Assembly (NCBI GenBank): GCA_001724025.1
Contig: MEDJ01000022.1
Span: 124,001 to 188,000, forward strand
Source: Acidobacteria bacterium SCN 69-37
GTDB taxonomy: Bacteria; Acidobacteriota; Vicinamibacteria; Vicinamibacterales; SCN-69-37
Reading direction: 5' to 3'
Length of the DNA stretch: 64,000 nucleotides
Position numbers and translations under genes: made by a program
Part shown: piece by piece, positions 5,264 to 56,058 of the stretch
Position numbering within the stretch: position 1 is the stretch's first letter
Layout: each line of letters begins with the position of its first letter
Notes under the pieces: model-generated
The model's database searches: none
What the model was told of the DNA's origin: nothing
What the model saw: the letters and a program-made list of their open reading frames with translations, nothing else

Positions 5264-6453
5264 CACGAGGCTCGGGGCGCGGTCGCTGATACGCGCGCGC
5301 GTGTCGGGTCAGCGGGGCGGCGCGCCAGCGCCGCTGCGGTCTGCGCGTCGGCCCACGCCGCCCGCAGCGGCGCCGTGGCGGCGGCCCACGATCGACCGAC
5401 TGCGTAGTCGCGTGCGGCTGCGGCGACCGCACGACGACGAGACGGATCTCGCACCAGTTCCAGCACGGCGCCGGCAAAGGCCGTCGCATCGCCTGCGGGA
5501 CAGACCGTACCCGTCACGCCCGGTCGCATCTGCTGACACGGCCCGCCTCGGTCACTCACCACGACGGGCAGGCCGGACGCCTGCGCCTCGAGCACAACGT
5601 TGCCGAACGTGTCCGTCGCACTGGGGAACAGGAAGAGATCCGCCGAAGCCATTGCGATCGCCACCTGATCGTGGGGCAGCGCACCGGTGAACACGGCGCC
5701 GGGTACGAGCCGTCGCAGTTCCAGGTCGAGCGGTCCATCGCCCACGAAGATCATGCGATGGTCCACGGCGTGCCGATGGAGGAGACGCTGCACGTCGCCG
5801 ATCACGCGCAGTCCCTTCTCTGCCGACAACCGGCCCGCATACAGGATCGCCGGACGACGGTCGTCCACCCGCCAGGTGCGCCGCCATGAGTCGGATCGGC
5901 GGGCAGGGGAAAAGCGCTCGCCGTTCACGCCGCGAGGCCACAGACGCAGATCCGGCGCGTAATCGAAGGCCGCGAGCCGCTCCGCGGTGGCGACGGACGG
6001 CACGAGCAGCGAGGCACAGGGTCGATAGAACCAGCGCATGTACGCGTCGAACGCGGTACCGAGGCGCGGCGACCCGCTGAGTACGCGCACGTACTCGCCG
6101 AGTTCCGTGTGGTAGCTGCCGACGACCGGCAGACGACGGCGCGCGGCGATCCAGCGCCCGGCGAGCCCGACCGGACCAGGCGTGGCCAGGTGCACGACGC
6201 TGATCCGGTCGGCGTCGAGCTGACGCAGCATGCGCCGTACGCGGGGCCAGTACGCGCGCATCTCGCGGTACCACGGCAGTCCGACGCCGAAGGACGCGGT
6301 GGCAAAGTAGTCGGGCGCTTCGACGTCGGTCTCGGCGGCCGTGAAGATGCGGACGCTGCCCGGCGTTCGCATCTCTTCCAGCACGGCACGCCACGTCGTG
6401 GTGACGCCGTTGATCTTGTCGAAGTCGTTGTCGGTGAAGACGGCGACGCGCAT
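5263..6453 (-). CDS. GT4-family glycosyltransferase
   Basis: A 396-residue GT-B glycosyltransferase. MRVAVFTDNDFDKINGVTTT at the N-terminus is the nucleotide-fold loop seen in GDP-mannose- or UDP-dependent GT4 enzymes acting on lipid acceptors. GSYHTELGEY lies mid N-domain; LYAGRLSAEKGL marks the start of the C-terminal donor domain; FPSATDTFGNVVLEAQASGL carries the E-x7-E donor-binding motif near residues 310-325. The start at 6453 was chosen because ATG overlaps the upstream PHP gene stop by one base (TGATG) and the protein begins at the canonical strand; an upstream extension to 6624 is inside that gene. The donor and acceptor cannot be read from the sequence. Confidence 0.88.
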   Translation of the reverse strand: MRVAVFTDNDFDKINGVTTTWRAVLEEMRTPGSVRIFTAAETDVEAPDYFATASFGVGLPWYREMRAYWPRVRRMLRQLDADRISVVHLATPGPVGLAGRWIAARRRLPVVGSYHTELGEYVRVLSGSPRLGTAFDAYMRWFYRPCASLLVPSVATAERLAAFDYAPDLRLWPRGVNGERFSPARRSDSWRRTWRVDDRRPAILYAGRLSAEKGLRVIGDVQRLLHRHAVDHRMIFVGDGPLDLELRRLVPGAVFTGALPHDQVAIAMASADLFLFPSATDTFGNVVLEAQASGLPVVVSDRGGPCQQMRPGVTGTVCPAGDATAFAGAVLELVRDPSRRRAVAAAARDYAVGRSWAAATAPLRAAWADAQTAAALARRPADPTRARVSATAPRAS

Positions 6454-28173: not shown

Positions 28174-30687
28174 ATGACCCTCGCCAGGTGCACGTCGCTG
28201 CTGCTGATGCTGCTGGTCGGTACCGCCACTGCGCTGGCTCAGCCAGCGCCCACCGGCCTGTCGGGCCAGGTGCGCGACGAGTCGGGCGCGCCGATCCCGG
28301 ACGCCGACGTCACGGTGACCGCGTCTGTCGACGGCGCCATCTCGCGCGCAGCGACGGACGCTGACGGGCGGTTTGCGATCCCGGAGCTCGTCCCCGGCCG
28401 CTATGCCGTGATTGTCGAGCGCGCGGGCCTCGTGCCCGCGGTCATCCCGGACCTGGTGATCGACGCTGGCACCACGCGCGCACTCACACTGGTGCTTCGC
28501 GTGCCCGGCATCAGCGAGGTCGTCTCCGTGGGGGCCGATCAGGCGCCACCGGCAGCGGCCCCATCGACGATCGAACTGCCGCCGACGATCGTCCAGAACG
28601 TGGCGGGCGCGGCCGAGAACATCTATCGCGTGCTGCAGACGCTGCCGGGCGTCGGGGCGGTCAACGACTTCGACAGCCGCCTGACCGTACGCGGCGGTGG
28701 TCCCGATCAGAACCTCACGGTGATGGACGGCGTCGAGATCCACAACCCGTATCGCCTGTTCGGCCTGACGAGCGCGTTCAATCCCGAAACCGTCGCCAAC
28801 TTCGAACTCACCACCGGCGGCTTCAGCGCGAAGTACGGTGACCGTCTCTCCTCCATCCTCGTTGTCGAGAATCGTCCCGGTCGCGCGTCTCCGGGACTGG
28901 GCGCCACGGCAGCCATCGGCCTGACGGATGGCAACCTCGTGGCCGAGGGACGCGTGCCCGGCACGAACGACAGTTCGTGGCTCGTCACCGGCCGCCGTAC
29001 CTATTACGACCTCGTGGCCGAGCGCATCGTCGATGCGGATCTGCCCTCGTTTGCCGATCTCCAGGCGCGCCTCGATCTCCAGGTACGGCCGGGCCACCGG
29101 ATCGCCATCTTCGGTCTCAACAGCCGCGAAGGCACCGACGCACGGTTCGAGGATGACGACGACGGTGATGAGTATGTCGACATTCTCACGTCGACACAGA
29201 ACGATCTCGGGGCCGTGTCGTACGCCGCGACGATTGGCAGCCGCGCGTTCAGCCGGACCACGGTGTCGTGGTACCGCAATCGGGAACTCATCGACTTCGC
29301 CGGCGATCTCCGGCCTGGCGCGAGGCGGTCGAACAGCCCCGATACGGACGGCATGCCGCTCGCCGCGATTGTCTTCACGCGGCGGCTGTCGATTCAGGAC
29401 GTGGCGCTGCGTCACGAGTCGGGCATCAACCTCGGGACGTCGCACCTCGTCGAGGCCGGCGTCGAGACGCACAACCTCGACACGACGTGGCGCTGGCGCA
29501 TCGCGGGCGAGCGCAATTTCGACGCATCGAACGGCTCGAGTGGACAAGGTGGCGCCGGCATCCCGTCGCTGCTCGACTCGGCGCAGGCGAGCGTGCGTGT
29601 CGGCGCGTGGGTGACGGACAGGTGGACGATGGCGCCCGGTGTGCGCGTCGAGCCGGGGCTGCGCCTCGACTGGAGTGGCGTGACAGGCGAAACGACGATC
29701 TCGCCGCGACTGGCTGCCGTGATCGACGTGACGTCCCGTACGCGCCTGCGGCTCGCGGGCGGACTGTTCACGCAGAGTCCCGGCTACGAAAAGCTGCTGC
29801 AGTCGGACTATTTCCTCGACCTCACCGACGCCGGGGGCCTCTCCGTGAAGAGCGAGCGCGCGTGGCACGCGCTGACCGCCGTCGAGCGTCGTCTGGCCCG
29901 CGGCGTGACGATCCGGCTCGAGGGGTACTACAAGGATTTCGATCGGCTGGCACTCGGCCGGCTCGAGACGCCCGAGGAGACGGCCGCACGTGTGGCGACA
30001 TACGACTTTCCGGCGTCGCTCGCCTCCGGCATTCCTCGCGCCGCGCAGGTGACCACCGTACCGGCCAACATCGGAACGGGACGGTCGTACGGCGCCGAGA
30101 TCTACGCGGAGAAGCGGGCCACGTCTCCCGACACCCGACTGTCCGGCTGGGCCTCGTATACGCTCGGTCGCGCGGAGACGACGGCGTACGGCCGCGTGTT
30201 TGCCGCGGACTACGACCGTCGGCACGCCCTGAGTGTAGTGTCGTCGTTCCGGTTGAACCGACTGATCGAGGTCGGCGCGACGTTCCGCGCACAGTCGGGA
30301 TTCCCCTATACGCCGGCGATCGGCGTGCGTCCGGCTTCCGTCGAGGATCCGCTCGCCGCGGCCGCCGGCCGCACGCGGCTGATCCCGCTTCGAGACGCAC
30401 GCGGCCAACTCGTCTGGTCGGCCGACTACGGTGATACGTCGAACTTCAATACCGGACGACTGCCGGTCTTCGCGCGGCTCGATATGCGCGTGACGTTCCG
30501 CCCCCGCTGGTCGAGCGACCGCTGGCAGTTGTACGTCGAGGTGATCAATCTCCTCAACCGCGATAACGCTAGCGAGATCAATACGGTGCTCGGCTTCGAC
30601 CCCTCATCCGATCGCCCGGCGATCACCGAGGAGCGCACCGGCCGACTGCCGCTGCTGCCGAGTTTCGGGCTGCGGTATCGATTCTGA
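28174..30687 (+). CDS. TonB-dependent receptor with carboxypeptidase-regulatory-like domain
   Basis: An 837-residue receptor. ATG 28174 starts a signal peptide MTLARCTSLLLMLLVGTATA (cleavage near ALAQP); a GTG at 28153 in the same frame is an alternative. LSGQVRDESGAPIPDADVTV is the regulatory-like domain (residues 30-110). The plug has NIYRVLQTLPGVGAVNDFDS, LTVRGGGPDQNLTVMDGVEI and the HNPYRLFGL motif, followed by the barrel ending LLPSFGLRYRF. The HNPYR-type plug resembles SusC/CirA-like receptors in Acidobacteria. It may form a unit with the GMC-VOC pair 105 bp upstream. Confidence 0.88.
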   Translation: MTLARCTSLLLMLLVGTATALAQPAPTGLSGQVRDESGAPIPDADVTVTASVDGAISRAATDADGRFAIPELVPGRYAVIVERAGLVPAVIPDLVIDAGTTRALTLVLRVPGISEVVSVGADQAPPAAAPSTIELPPTIVQNVAGAAENIYRVLQTLPGVGAVNDFDSRLTVRGGGPDQNLTVMDGVEIHNPYRLFGLTSAFNPETVANFELTTGGFSAKYGDRLSSILVVENRPGRASPGLGATAAIGLTDGNLVAEGRVPGTNDSSWLVTGRRTYYDLVAERIVDADLPSFADLQARLDLQVRPGHRIAIFGLNSREGTDARFEDDDDGDEYVDILTSTQNDLGAVSYAATIGSRAFSRTTVSWYRNRELIDFAGDLRPGARRSNSPDTDGMPLAAIVFTRRLSIQDVALRHESGINLGTSHLVEAGVETHNLDTTWRWRIAGERNFDASNGSSGQGGAGIPSLLDSAQASVRVGAWVTDRWTMAPGVRVEPGLRLDWSGVTGETTISPRLAAVIDVTSRTRLRLAGGLFTQSPGYEKLLQSDYFLDLTDAGGLSVKSERAWHALTAVERRLARGVTIRLEGYYKDFDRLALGRLETPEETAARVATYDFPASLASGIPRAAQVTTVPANIGTGRSYGAEIYAEKRATSPDTRLSGWASYTLGRAETTAYGRVFAADYDRRHALSVVSSFRLNRLIEVGATFRAQSGFPYTPAIGVRPASVEDPLAAAAGRTRLIPLRDARGQLVWSADYGDTSNFNTGRLPVFARLDMRVTFRPRWSSDRWQLYVEVINLLNRDNASEINTVLGFDPSSDRPAITEERTGRLPLLPSFGLRYRF

Positions 30688-30689
30688 GG

Positions 30690-30740
30690 AGGTGGGGAGG
30701 CGGCAGGCGGGAAGGAGGCTGGGAGGCACGGGAGGCGGGT
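30690..30740 (+). repeat. family-2 purine-rich repeat
   Basis: GGTGGGGAGGCGGCAGGCGG, GAAGGAGGCTGGGAGGC and GGAGGCGGG follow each other directly after the TonB receptor stop. A TATAGT box (30749-30754) comes next and may drive the permease remnant at 30802. Confidence 0.5.
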
Positions 30741-30801
30741 ACGCCTGCTATAGTGCGTCGCCATCCCTGATCGATCCGGAAGAAGTCTGCGCATACGTGG
30801 C

Positions 30802-31230
30802 GTGACCTTCCTATCGGGCGTTGCCCGCGACCTCCGCATGGCCGTCCGTCGTCTGCTGGCGGCCCCAGCCTATGCGGTGTTCTCCATCGTGACACTCGCG
30901 CTCGCCATCGGCATCACGACGGCGGTCTATTCGACGGTGCACCACTTCATGCGCGTCGACTACGGGATCGACGATCGCGCGAGTCTCTCCGACATCCGGG
31001 AGAACAGATGGGCACGGCCGTTGTCGTGGCCGGACTTCCGCGACATTGCCGCCGACCAGGAGAGCTTCGCGCAGCTGGCCGCCTGGAGCCGGGTCGTCAC
31101 GAACCTCAGCGCGGACGACACGACGCAGATGGCCTGGGGCGAAATCGTCAGCGGCACCTACTTCGCGGTCCTTGGCGCACAGCCGACGCTGGGTCGCCTG
31201 CTCTCGCCAGCCGACGACGCCGGCCGTCGT
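30802..31230 (+). pseudogene. ADOP/MacB-type ABC permease, N-terminal fragment
   Basis: From GTG 30802 the frame gives FLSGVARDLRMAVRRLLAAP, the hydrophobic helix YAVFSIVTLALAIGITTAVY, and the start of the periplasmic domain (PLSWPDFRDIAADQESFAQL, SGTYFAVLGAQPTLGRLLSP). This is the MacB_PCD start of an Acidobacterial orphan permease that normally runs to about 800 residues. The homology ends near 31230 where PadR-like sequence on the other strand starts, so at least 80 percent of the gene is missing. ADOP genes usually sit beside PadR regulators, matching the remnant next to it. Confidence 0.8.
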
Positions 31231-31392
31231 CAGAAGGCTCGGATGTCACGAGTCCTTTCTGCTCCATCCGCCCGAGCGTGACGTAGATGCCGCCGCGGGT
31301 CAGTCGCCCCTCGGATGCCGCCACCAGTTCCAGCCCGTAGCAGACATCGCGTGCCGAGAGCAGTTCGAGAACTTGCCGCTGTTGGAATGTTC
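31215..31392 (-). pseudogene. PadR-family regulator, internal fragment
   Basis: The minus strand reads RQVLELLSARDVCYGLELVA followed by ASEGRLTRGGIYVTLGRMEQ and KGLVTSEPSDDGR, the winged-helix core of PadR repressors. A stop (TGA) lies four codons before RQVLELL and no start is present; the far end runs into the permease fragment at a small palindrome GACGACGCCGGCCGTCGTC. Both ends are lost. Confidence 0.75.
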
Positions 31393-31399
31393 AAGAATC

Positions 31400-31446
31400 A
31401 TCTACCATGAAAATCGAATCTTAAATGTTCGATTTTCATGGTAGAT
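31400..31446. repeat. 19-bp perfect AT-rich inverted repeat before the DUF4143 ATPase
   Basis: ATCTACCATGAAAATCGAA (31400-31418) and its exact complement (31428-31446) flank a 9-nt loop. The ATPase GTG start follows 8 bp later. In such GC-rich DNA the AT content is exceptional. It may be an autoregulatory operator or a hairpin terminator-attenuator, or a mobile-element end. Confidence 0.7.
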
Positions 31447-31453
31447 TGGCTCC

Positions 31454-32632
31454 GTGGTTTCGCGAACCGATCTGCGCGACGTACTGTTGCAGGCGCTCGA
31501 CCGGGGCCGTGTCGTCGTCGTAGCCGGCCCACGACAATCGGGTAAGACCACGCTGGCCCGGGAACTGGTTGCGAGCGGTTCGCCGAACTATTTCGATCTC
31601 GAGGATCCCGTCAGCCTTGCGCTGCTCGACCAGCCCATGACCGCGCTGGCCGGTCTGCGCGGACTCGTGGTGATCGACGAAGTGCAGCGCCGTCCGGAAC
31701 TGTTTCCCATTCTCCGGGTCCTCGCCGACCGCGATCCGATGCCTGCACGGTTCCTGGTTCTCGGCTCCGCATCGGGTGCCCTGCTTCGTCAGAGCTCGGA
31801 AAGCCTGGCAGGACGCGTCGAACGCATCACGATCTCAGGCTTCACCGTGCAGGAACTCGGCGCCGACGCCATCGATCGCCTCTGGATGCGAGGCGGACTG
31901 CCGCGGTCCTGTCTGGCCGGCTCCGATGAGGACAGCGCGGCCTGGCGGGCCGACTACATCCGCACGCTGCTCGAACAGGACCTTCCGACCTGGGGCGGTC
32001 GCGTCCCGGCCAACGCCCTCCGCCGCTTCTGGACCATGCTCGCGCACTATCACGGCCAGGTCTGGAACGCCGCCGAGCCCGCGCGGGCGCTCGGTGTCAG
32101 CGAGCCCACGGTCCGTCGTCACCTCGATCTGCTGACCGATGCGTTCATGATTCGCCAGCTGCAGCCGTACCATGCCAACATCGGCAAACGGCAGATCAAG
32201 GCGCCAAAGATCTACGTGCGCGACAGTGGACTACTCCATCACCTGCTCGGAATCGAGTCGATGTCCGGTCTGCTCAGGCACCCGAAGCTGGGCGCGTCGT
32301 GGGAGGGCTTCGCCATCGAGCAGGTCCTGGCCAACGAACCGCACCACGACGCGTTCTACTGGGGCACGCACCAGGGAGCGGAGATCGATCTCGTGCTCCA
32401 GCGCGGCAGCCGGCTCTTCGGCGTCGAGTTCAAACGCGCCGACGCGCCACGCCTGACGCCATCGATCCGGCATGCGCTCGACGATCTGAAACTCGATCGC
32501 GTCGTGGTCGTGTACCCCGGCGACCGGTCGTACCGCCTGTCCGATCGCGTGCAGGTCGTGCCGCTGCGCACACTGGCTGACCGGGGCTCGCTGTTCGCCG
32601 AGGACGATCCAGGGGTGGACGCCGAGGGCTGA
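31454..32632 (+). CDS. DUF4143/AAA_14 ATPase
   Basis: A 392-residue ATPase. VVVAGPRQSGKTTLARELVA carries Walker A (GPRQSGKT) near residue 24 and LVVIDEVQRRPELFPILRVL carries Walker B. The C-terminal DUF4143 region has ALGVSEPTVRRHLDLLTDAF, a helix-turn-helix-like part, and EIDLVLQRGSRLFGVEFKRA, which resembles a PD-(D/E)xK nuclease core (D, E-x-K). These proteins are common, often horizontally transferred, and of unknown target. It sits in a scar between a truncated permease/PadR pair and the EcsC gene with an AT-rich palindrome in front. GTG start at 31454; no partner toxin gene adjoins. Confidence 0.88.
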   Translation: MVSRTDLRDVLLQALDRGRVVVVAGPRQSGKTTLARELVASGSPNYFDLEDPVSLALLDQPMTALAGLRGLVVIDEVQRRPELFPILRVLADRDPMPARFLVLGSASGALLRQSSESLAGRVERITISGFTVQELGADAIDRLWMRGGLPRSCLAGSDEDSAAWRADYIRTLLEQDLPTWGGRVPANALRRFWTMLAHYHGQVWNAAEPARALGVSEPTVRRHLDLLTDAFMIRQLQPYHANIGKRQIKAPKIYVRDSGLLHHLLGIESMSGLLRHPKLGASWEGFAIEQVLANEPHHDAFYWGTHQGAEIDLVLQRGSRLFGVEFKRADAPRLTPSIRHALDDLKLDRVVVVYPGDRSYRLSDRVQVVPLRTLADRGSLFAEDDPGVDAEG

Positions 32633-32689
32633 CGGCAGGCGGGCACGTCGTATGCCCGCCCGCGCGATGGCGACGTCGGGACCTGCGGC

Positions 32690-32752
32690 CGTGCCGCCGC
32701 GCCGCCGTGCCGCCGCCCGCCGCCCGCCGCCCGCCGCCCGCCGCCCGCCGCC
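32690..32752 (+). repeat. GC tandem array, 6 x CGCCGCC
   Basis: Six uninterrupted copies of the 7-bp unit CGCCGCC span 32711-32752, preceded by irregular GCCGTGCCGCC units from about 32690. It abuts the TATAGT box of the EcsC gene, so copy-number changes could affect promoter spacing. Confidence 0.85.
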
Positions 32753-32758
32753 TATAGT
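32753..32758 (+). promoter_or_regulatory. -10 box TATAGT before the EcsC-like gene
   Basis: TATAGT starts at the last base of the tandem array and ends 11 nt before ATG 32770, with no SD. Confidence 0.4.
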
Positions 32759-32769
32759 CTGTAATCACC

Positions 32770-33549
32770 ATGTCCTTGTCGGATGTCGATCGCGAGGCGC
32801 TCCGTACGGCCAAGCACCTGCTCGAGACGCCCGGCCTCGGCGCCAGGATTACCGGCATGATCGGGATGCCGATGGAAAAGGCACTCGAACTGCTGCCGGC
32901 GCACTGGACGGACGTCGTGTCGCGCGCGACGCGCAAGTCGCTCGACACGGCCCTGCACCTCGCGCTGACGACGCTCGGCGATCACGAGCGACCACGCGCA
33001 CGCGACGCGCTGCACCGGCTGGCCGTCGCGGCCACGGGTGCAGGCGGTGGCGCCTTCGGTCTGATGGGACTCCCGCTCGAACTGCCCGTGTCCACCACGA
33101 TCATGCTCCGCTCGATTGCCGACATCGCCCGCAGTGAGGGCGAACAGTTGCAGACACCCGAGGCGAAGATGGCGTGCCTGGAAGTCTTCGCGCTCGGCGG
33201 CCGCTCAGCCGCAGACGACGCCAGCGAGTCGGCGTATTTCCTGGTGCGCGCGGCCCTCGCAAAGTCGATCACCGATGCGGCGGCGTTCGTGGCTCAGCGT
33301 GGGCTTGCCGAACAGGGCGCTCCGGCCCTGCTCCGCCTGGTGGCGCAGATTGCATCGCGTTTCGGTGCGACGGTGTCCCAGAAACTCGCGGCGCAGGCGG
33401 TCCCCGTCGTCGGTGCGGCGGGCGGCGCCGTCATCAACGTCATGTTCATCGATCACTTCCAGGACATGGCACGCGGACACTTCACCGTGCGACGACTCGA
33501 ACGGCTGTACTCGCCTGAACTGATCAGGGCCGAATACGACAAGCTCTGA
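32770..33549 (+). CDS. EcsC-family protein
   Basis: A 259-residue protein like EcsC of Bacillus, whose exact role is unclear. The N-terminal amphipathic helix (LRTAKHLLETPGLGARITGM) is followed by glycine-rich hydrophobic GAGGGAFGLMGLPLELPVST, the family hallmark; SIADIARSEGEQLQTPEAKM with CLEVFALGG; and KLAAQAVPVVGAAGGAVINV with MFIDHFQDMARGHFTVRRLE. It probably associates with membranes. The preceding GC tandem array and TATAGT box make its promoter unusual. No EcsAB transporter is near. Confidence 0.85.
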   Translation: MSLSDVDREALRTAKHLLETPGLGARITGMIGMPMEKALELLPAHWTDVVSRATRKSLDTALHLALTTLGDHERPRARDALHRLAVAATGAGGGAFGLMGLPLELPVSTTIMLRSIADIARSEGEQLQTPEAKMACLEVFALGGRSAADDASESAYFLVRAALAKSITDAAAFVAQRGLAEQGAPALLRLVAQIASRFGATVSQKLAAQAVPVVGAAGGAVINVMFIDHFQDMARGHFTVRRLERLYSPELIRAEYDKL

Positions 33550-55017: not shown

Positions 55018-56058
55018 GTGAGCGCACACCCGACCGCCGCCAATCCGATTCTCGACTTCGGGATCGACAAGAGCGCGCTGCAATATCTCGGTGCCGACCT
55101 GCAGCGCCCCGAGTGCATCCTGGCCGAACGTGACGGCACACTGTGGTCAGCCGATGCGCGCGGTGGCGTCGTGCGCCTGCGTCACGATGGCACGCAGACC
55201 ATCGTGACGCAGGCGCAGTCGAGCCACTTCGGCGCGGCAGACTCCGATGCCACGCGGTACCTGCGCGGTACGCTGCCGAACGGCCTGGCCTTCGCCGACA
55301 ACGGCGACTTCCTCATCTCGAACTTCGGCACCGATCGGCTCGAGCGCATGACGCGTGACGGCCGCTCCGTCGTGCTGGCCGATCGCGTCGACAGCGAAGA
55401 AGTCGGCAAGGTGAACTTCGTCCTGCGTGATTCGAAGAATCGCATCTGGGTGACGATCTCGACGCGCATCAAGAACTGGATGCACGCGCTGCGCACCGAC
55501 CTGGCCGACGGTTATCTGGCGCGCTACGAGAACGGCACGCTGCGGATCGTGGCTGACGGCTTCCGTTTCACCAACGAGATCCGGTTCGACGCCAGCGAAG
55601 AATGGCTCTATGTCGTCGAAACGACGGGGGGCTGCATCACGCGTTTGCGCATCGATGACCGGGGAGAGGTGGCCGAGCGCGAGATTTTCGGACCATCCTC
55701 GCTCGGGACCGGCGCCTGGCCGGACGGGATCGCGTTCGACAGCGTCGGCAACCTGTGGGGCACGCTCGTCTATTCGGACAAGCTCTTCGTGCTGACACCG
55801 AAGGGCGACCTGATCGTCCTGCTCGACGAGGGCGATCCGAAGAAGGTGGCTGCACTCGAGCAGCAGTTCCGCCAGAATCGCGTGACCGAAGACGTGCTCT
55901 TTGCCACCGGCCGCGGCGTCGCGCCGTGGATGGCCAGCGTGACGTTCGGCGGGCCGGACCTGCGGACTGTCTATATCGGCTCACTCAAGGGCAGCTGCAT
56001 TCCCTATTTCCGAGCGCCCGTCCCGGGCCTGCCGATGGTGCACTGGCACGAACGATGA
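55018..56058 (+). CDS. SMP-30/gluconolactonase-family lactonase
   Basis: A 346-residue six-bladed beta-propeller hydrolase starting at GTG 55018. ECILAERDGTLWSADARGGV holds the first metal Glu; NGLAFADNGDFLISNFGTDR, GFRFTNEIRFDASEEWLYVV and GAWPDGIAFDSVGNLWGTLV supply the Asn, Asn and Asp ligands of the SMP-30 metal site. This family opens sugar lactones. A nine-codon frame (54992-55021) ends on the GTGA overlap just before it. Position beside quinoproteins that form lactones fits the role. Under the same operator as the transporter operon (site A, 135 bp upstream). Confidence 0.85.
   Translation: MSAHPTAANPILDFGIDKSALQYLGADLQRPECILAERDGTLWSADARGGVVRLRHDGTQTIVTQAQSSHFGAADSDATRYLRGTLPNGLAFADNGDFLISNFGTDRLERMTRDGRSVVLADRVDSEEVGKVNFVLRDSKNRIWVTISTRIKNWMHALRTDLADGYLARYENGTLRIVADGFRFTNEIRFDASEEWLYVVETTGGCITRLRIDDRGEVAEREIFGPSSLGTGAWPDGIAFDSVGNLWGTLVYSDKLFVLTPKGDLIVLLDEGDPKKVAALEQQFRQNRVTEDVLFATGRGVAPWMASVTFGGPDLRTVYIGSLKGSCIPYFRAPVPGLPMVHWHER

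Follow-up and report, generated by a model that had tools for sequence, protein, structure and literature searches.

The window analysed here, the whole 64,000-nucleotide stretch of DNA from Acidobacteria bacterium SCN 69-37, carries a 47-bp perfect palindrome at positions 31400-31446, which a repeat search resolved into ATCTACCATGAAAATCGAA and its exact complement, that is, two arms of 19 nt (31400-31418 and 31428-31446, no strand assigned) that are 100% complementary around a 9-nt loop. Seven nucleotides separate it from the GTG start codon (31454) of a forward-strand gene (31454..32632) for a 392-aa ATPase with AAA_14, winged-helix and DUF4143 parts, whose best PADLOC match is PDC-S01. The preliminary description had reported the perfect 19-bp inverted repeat at this place and its departure from the local base composition, and both observations hold: the GC content of the palindrome is 0.30 versus 0.678 for the window, and of the 63,954 windows of 47 nt just 16 match it in AT-richness. 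With loops of up to 20 nt allowed, no inverted repeat in the 64 kb is longer and one equals it, a second 19-bp perfect repeat (55172-55217) that is GC-rich and located within a 346-aa ORF (55018-56058), a coding gene. No second copy of one arm was found in the window when as many as 3 mismatches were allowed (chance expectation 0.00), nor any further copy of the palindrome in the whole 4.43 Mb genome, so that a palindrome family within the host genome is ruled out; the one-arm search of the genome returned two extra single arms with 3 mismatches each, which proved unrelated on inspection.

The start at GTG 31454 is backed by the alignment of relatives, whose starts likewise lie 10 nt past GGTA. 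The product matches the Pfam families AAA_14 (E 2e-22) and DUF4143 (E 7.5e-44) and the PADLOC profile PDC-S01 (E 1e-87). In the AAA_14 ATPase domain (residues 19-135; 31508..31858, + strand), matched by Pfam, the Walker A residues G25/G30-K31 and the Walker B residues D75-E76 are invariant among 47 aligned family members, as are E284, D312 and E325, with K327 nearly so, in the PD-(D/E)XK nuclease-type domain (32288..32569, + strand; conserved E284, D312, E325-x-K327). The AlphaFold model of the ATPase (pLDDT 91.7) contains a winged helix at about residues 186-236 (32009..32161, + strand; also from Pfam), which is the candidate DNA-binding part; an HTH-like segment had earlier been placed in the C-terminal part of the protein, and it is in fact central. 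Residues 1-266 of the model resemble the archaeal ATPases 2qen and 2fna (VIA Z 16.5 and 15.8, respectively, over 243 residues), and the next fold matches are NLR/CED-4-type and Avs ATPases. When the C-terminal domain was modelled alone, the nearest structures were the PD-(D/E)XK nucleases Can2, Card1 and McrC, and these modest matches (Foldseek E 7e-4; VIA Z 7.9, 145 residues aligned, rmsd 4.4) agree with the PD-(D/E)XK motif residues. Among solved structures, no sequence relative was found beyond P-loop matches. The structure models point to AAA+, winged-helix and PD-(D/E)XK nuclease domains in what is a predicted anti-phage ATPase. That the palindrome serves as the substrate of its own nuclease was judged unlikely, because it would then hardly be intact beside an intact gene.

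Both features lie within a segment of about 2.1 kb (30686..32783, no strand) that is missing from the corresponding position of another genome of the genus. In that genome the flanking TonB-receptor and EcsC genes stand 46 bp apart, from stop to start codon, and no DUF4143 gene was found. Apart from the palindrome and the ATPase gene, the segment contains a truncated MacB/FtsX-type permease ORF (30802..31281, + strand; from Pfam and the ORF list) and a padR-like regulator fragment (31249..31390, - strand), which has no in-frame start codon, ends just left of the palindrome and resembles Pfam PadR only weakly (E 0.006, below the cut-off). From this one comparison, the segment may represent either a gain in this lineage or a loss in the other. 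A G-rich repeat at 30690-30740 is matched in part at about 40 places in the genome.

A scan of 84,980 species genomes with the pattern TACCATGAAAATCG-N{0,30}-CGATTTTCATGGTA, built on the 41-bp unit TACCATGAAAATCG-N13-CGATTTTCATGGTA at 31404..31444 (no strand), matched 37 loci in other species, with identical arms and with a palindrome of exactly 41 nt in every case despite the 0-30 nt permitted for the spacer. This fixed-length recurrence across phyla (Bacteroidota, Verrucomicrobiota, Nitrospirota, Acidobacteriota, Pseudomonadota and Chloroflexota) rules out a chance palindrome. At 18 of the 37 loci the palindrome adjoins a full-length ATPase homologue (38-69% identity), in either orientation, and at four others merely a piece of a homologue is retained. 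A single copy is present in 35 of 36 genomes, and Pelobium and Algoriphagus have the identical 41-mer. Since none of 296 other genomes of the window's phylum contains the exact palindrome, the cross-phylum matches look horizontal rather than vertical, though some of them are metagenome bins, in which mis-binning is possible. ATPase homologues also occur on plasmids, and a search of viral contigs for the exact palindrome gave no IMG/VR match. Looking for similar palindromes near homologues was the check proposed in the preliminary description, and it turned up identical or subfamily-specific ones at many homologue starts in several phyla, so the operator idea withstood it. Inverted repeats scoring at least 12 were found upstream of 55 of 96 family genes and downstream of 16, in a set that over-represents the window's palindrome class because its genomes were found via that palindrome. 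Among DUF4143 genes picked regardless of palindromes, 8 of 40 upstream windows scored at least 11, versus 2 of 788 control windows.

A common geometry underlies many of these sites. The 35-bp dyad core of the window's palindrome, CATGAAAAT-N17-ATTTTCATG (31406..31440, no strand), fits the pattern C.TG.AAWT-N17-AWTT.CA.G that is common to relatives in other phyla. The strict pattern C.TG.AAWT...AWTT.CA.G was found in 37 upstream regions and in one of 3,706 control windows, and all 37 matches are 35 bp long, with lengths of 22-44 bp permitted; 45 of 140 upstream regions contain the looser TG.AA-N21-TT.CA, where 0.67 would be expected. As the motif was derived from those same data, the counts are descriptive and do not constitute an independent test, and more weight falls on the constant 35 bp, a length that the search did not impose. 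When members of the window's palindrome class are removed, the dyad persists in about 10 of 44 protein clusters; one further cluster belongs to the window's class and had escaped removal. On alphaproteobacterial plasmids, nine of ten homologues score beyond the 99th percentile of the controls, and in several of them symmetry is limited to the outer half-sites with the length unchanged, which suits protein binding better than a hairpin. On repABC plasmids of Alphaproteobacteria (L268, L269, L273 and L274), the ATPase gene repeatedly adjoins the replication gene repC. Among acidobacterial and chloroflexotal genes taken without selection, only a minority show a clear dyad (15 of 39 beyond the 99th percentile of the controls).

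Elsewhere in the family, branches have their own, different palindromes at the start codon. Half-sites are common to orthologues across genomes (median score 16 for pairs at least 60% identical), whereas paralogues within one genome do not share them (score 5, versus 4 when shuffled), and one Algoriphagus genome encodes seven ATPases with seven different palindromes. Changes between relatives were symmetric in both arms in 21 cases and not in 41, suggesting that symmetry is favoured but not absolute. The site is real, is found at homologue starts in several phyla, is branch-specific and keeps a strict 35-bp geometry in many branches. Some relatives present other upstream arrangements, namely tandem direct repeats (TTGTACAATTTCAAAATAA-like, iteron-like) in place of a palindrome (L145, L147, L149, L150 and L151) or arrays of several partly palindromic units ahead of the start codon (L163-L165, L157 and L104).

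In relatives with readable promoters, by our own reading, the dyad overlaps the -35 and -10 elements (TTGACT-17-CATAAT in L036 and TTGACA-17-TATGGT in L109). A TAnnTTTG motif is enriched near the start in a mostly Bacteroidota set (21 of 83, versus 3.6% in shuffled sequences), and at the window locus no sigma-70-like promoter scored above threshold. From these comparisons, the palindrome would be a double-stranded-DNA operator lying over the promoter and start region of the ATPase-nuclease gene and cognate to that single gene. Its binder would most likely be the ATPase's own winged-helix domain, acting as a dimer or a larger assembly, and the bound ATPase would repress its own transcription. 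We infer all three elements, namely protein binding, the ATPase as binder, and repression, and consider a cognate self-repression operator the best explanation and the most likely reading, probable though well short of certain. Counting against it are the perfect symmetry over 19-27 bp, which exceeds what an operator needs, the failure of any promoter to pass the threshold in the window, the minority share of clear dyads among the genes taken without selection, and the solo palindromes described below.

The palindromic site can occur twice at fixed spacing: in Algoriphagus, where the palindrome (up to 3 mismatches) is present in 44 of 72 genomes, most of the intact ATPase genes read have two palindromes each, and the tandem spacing in 15 pairs is 76 bp in 12, 98 bp in two and 77 bp in one, spacings of 76 and 98 bp differing by about two helical turns. 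At 22 Algoriphagus loci, the palindrome (again with up to 3 mismatches admitted) has no intact adjoining ATPase gene, and in 13 of these the arms are unchanged. In orthologous solo pairs aligned through the site (several pairs, e.g. L013/L037), the arms are identical at 28 of 28 positions and the flanks are about 70% identical, though these loci come from the search limited to 3 mismatches. Five palindrome-bearing draft genomes (G329, G297, G364, G305 and G311) have no detectable DUF4143 gene. The Algoriphagus solo palindromes do not fit a simple operator. They may reflect a second function of the site or recent losses, and recent repeated loss of the ATPase could explain part of them. The autoregulatory operator proposed in the preliminary description is therefore sustained only in part: it agrees with the palindromes at homologue starts and with the presence of a winged helix, and it is at odds with Algoriphagus palindromes that outlast the loss of the ATPase. 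It is still the best account, with strong comparative support, and the solo palindromes need explaining. In Sulfuricaulis (L014), two solo palindromes (1381-1421 and 5678-5718) stand about 100 bp ahead of a FitA/RHH-like antitoxin frame, and the homology between the two copies extends beyond the palindrome.

It could also be that the palindrome serves the spread of the ATPase gene as a target or attachment site, the gene moving along with it or being gained and lost beside it so as to leave solo copies, much as in the case of REP palindromes and their RAYT transposases. The gain or loss of the Algoriphagus ATPase beside a retained palindrome, with gene remnants in some cases, would be in line with this, as would an ATPase gene flanked by palindromes on both sides (L192), the location of the window's ATPase inside a segment missing from a same-genus genome, the 41-mer shared by Pelobium and Algoriphagus, and the homologues on plasmids. 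However, one palindrome per genome in nearly all genomes means that there is no dispersed repeat, the gene usually has no further copy at its other end, no transposase or recombinase domain was found, and paralogues in the same genome have no common palindrome, so we regard this explanation as improbable. The persistence of solo palindromes would find a place in a more speculative proposal that we also think unlikely, in which PDC-S01 branches are self-addressed, each co-evolving with its own start-codon dyad, and recognition is part of defence, for example with the dyad-bound, repressed protein being released or activated by phage DNA; loci that lost the gene would then retain the solo palindrome as a decoy or docking site.

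More doubtful still is that the palindrome acts as RNA, either as a hairpin hiding the start codon or as a terminator or 3'-end stabiliser for a neighbouring gene. The palindrome is predicted to form a strong hairpin (-32.3 kcal/mol, z -6.4), in Algoriphagus an ATG falls within its right arm, and several solo palindromes lie 6-36 bp past a stop codon. Yet any palindrome yields such a hairpin score, the readable promoters of relatives put the start of transcription in the dyad or beyond it, and the plasmid homologues that retain only outer half-sites have no stem. An RNA loop would be free to differ in size, yet the overall length is constant, and the palindrome is absent from the list of terminator-like sites; TGGCTCCG comes after it, with no U tract. 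The least probable of these alternatives is that some other regulator uses the site as its operator, for instance a defence or stress repressor of the host. Palindromes that persist where no DUF4143 gene is detected, and the two Sulfuricaulis copies ahead of a FitA-like antitoxin frame, could be read in its favour, but across phyla the site tracks the ATPase branch, and every paralogue in a genome has its own site, so that a separate, co-transferred regulator would be needed for each, and no regulator gene recurs beside the site in the loci read.

PDC-S01/COG1373 proteins (AAA_14-DUF4143) are predicted phage-defence ATPases, reported to rank fourth by frequency among the predicted defence systems of prokaryotes, and the literature on them gives prevalence and domains, validation pending for most such candidates (PMC12988326). 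The window gene shares the defining ATPase and PD-(D/E)XK architecture and the PADLOC match, its defence role being likewise a predicted one, and differs in the proposed operator, of which the literature found makes no mention: searches on DUF4143, COG1373, PDC-S01 and the sequence returned no report of a palindromic site, and no published PDC-S01 mechanism was found. The palindrome belongs to a set of gene-specific palindromic sites that spans several phyla, and a single fixed 35-bp layout recurs in many of them. A cognate site whose layout is fixed in many branches while its sequence is branch-specific would offer a direct handle on PDC-S01, as it predicts the target of the protein, the means by which its expression is kept low and the residues expected to covary with the site, and arms that stay intact after gene loss make a testable puzzle.

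REP palindromes are dispersed in many copies per genome and are associated with RAYT proteins, which are HUH (Y1) transposases. The window palindrome is likewise tied to one gene family and has solo copies, but it differs in being present once in 35 of 36 genomes and in accompanying AAA_14 and DUF4143 domains instead of an HUH transposase. With the archaeal STAND-type ATPases SSO1545 (2fna) and PABY2304 (2qen), the window ATPase has an AAA+ and winged-helix fold in common; the match covers residues 1-266 only, and the nuclease domain lies beyond it. Orc1/Cdc6 initiators are AAA+ and winged-helix proteins with inverted recognition sites (origin boxes) near their own gene, and 2qby is among the fold matches of the model. 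The similarity extends to the fold and to inverted sites near the gene, whereas the window ATPase adds a nuclease domain and has many paralogues per genome, and evidence for an origin is absent at the window locus. The control genes of toxin-antitoxin and restriction-modification systems have an autoregulatory dyad that lies over the promoter, beside the start codon, and is specific to its own gene, which may be a harmful one. The window similarly presents a gene-specific dyad beside a start codon, with dyad symmetry conserved in homologues; unlike in those systems, where the regulator is a small separate protein, the likely regulator here would be the ATPase-nuclease itself.
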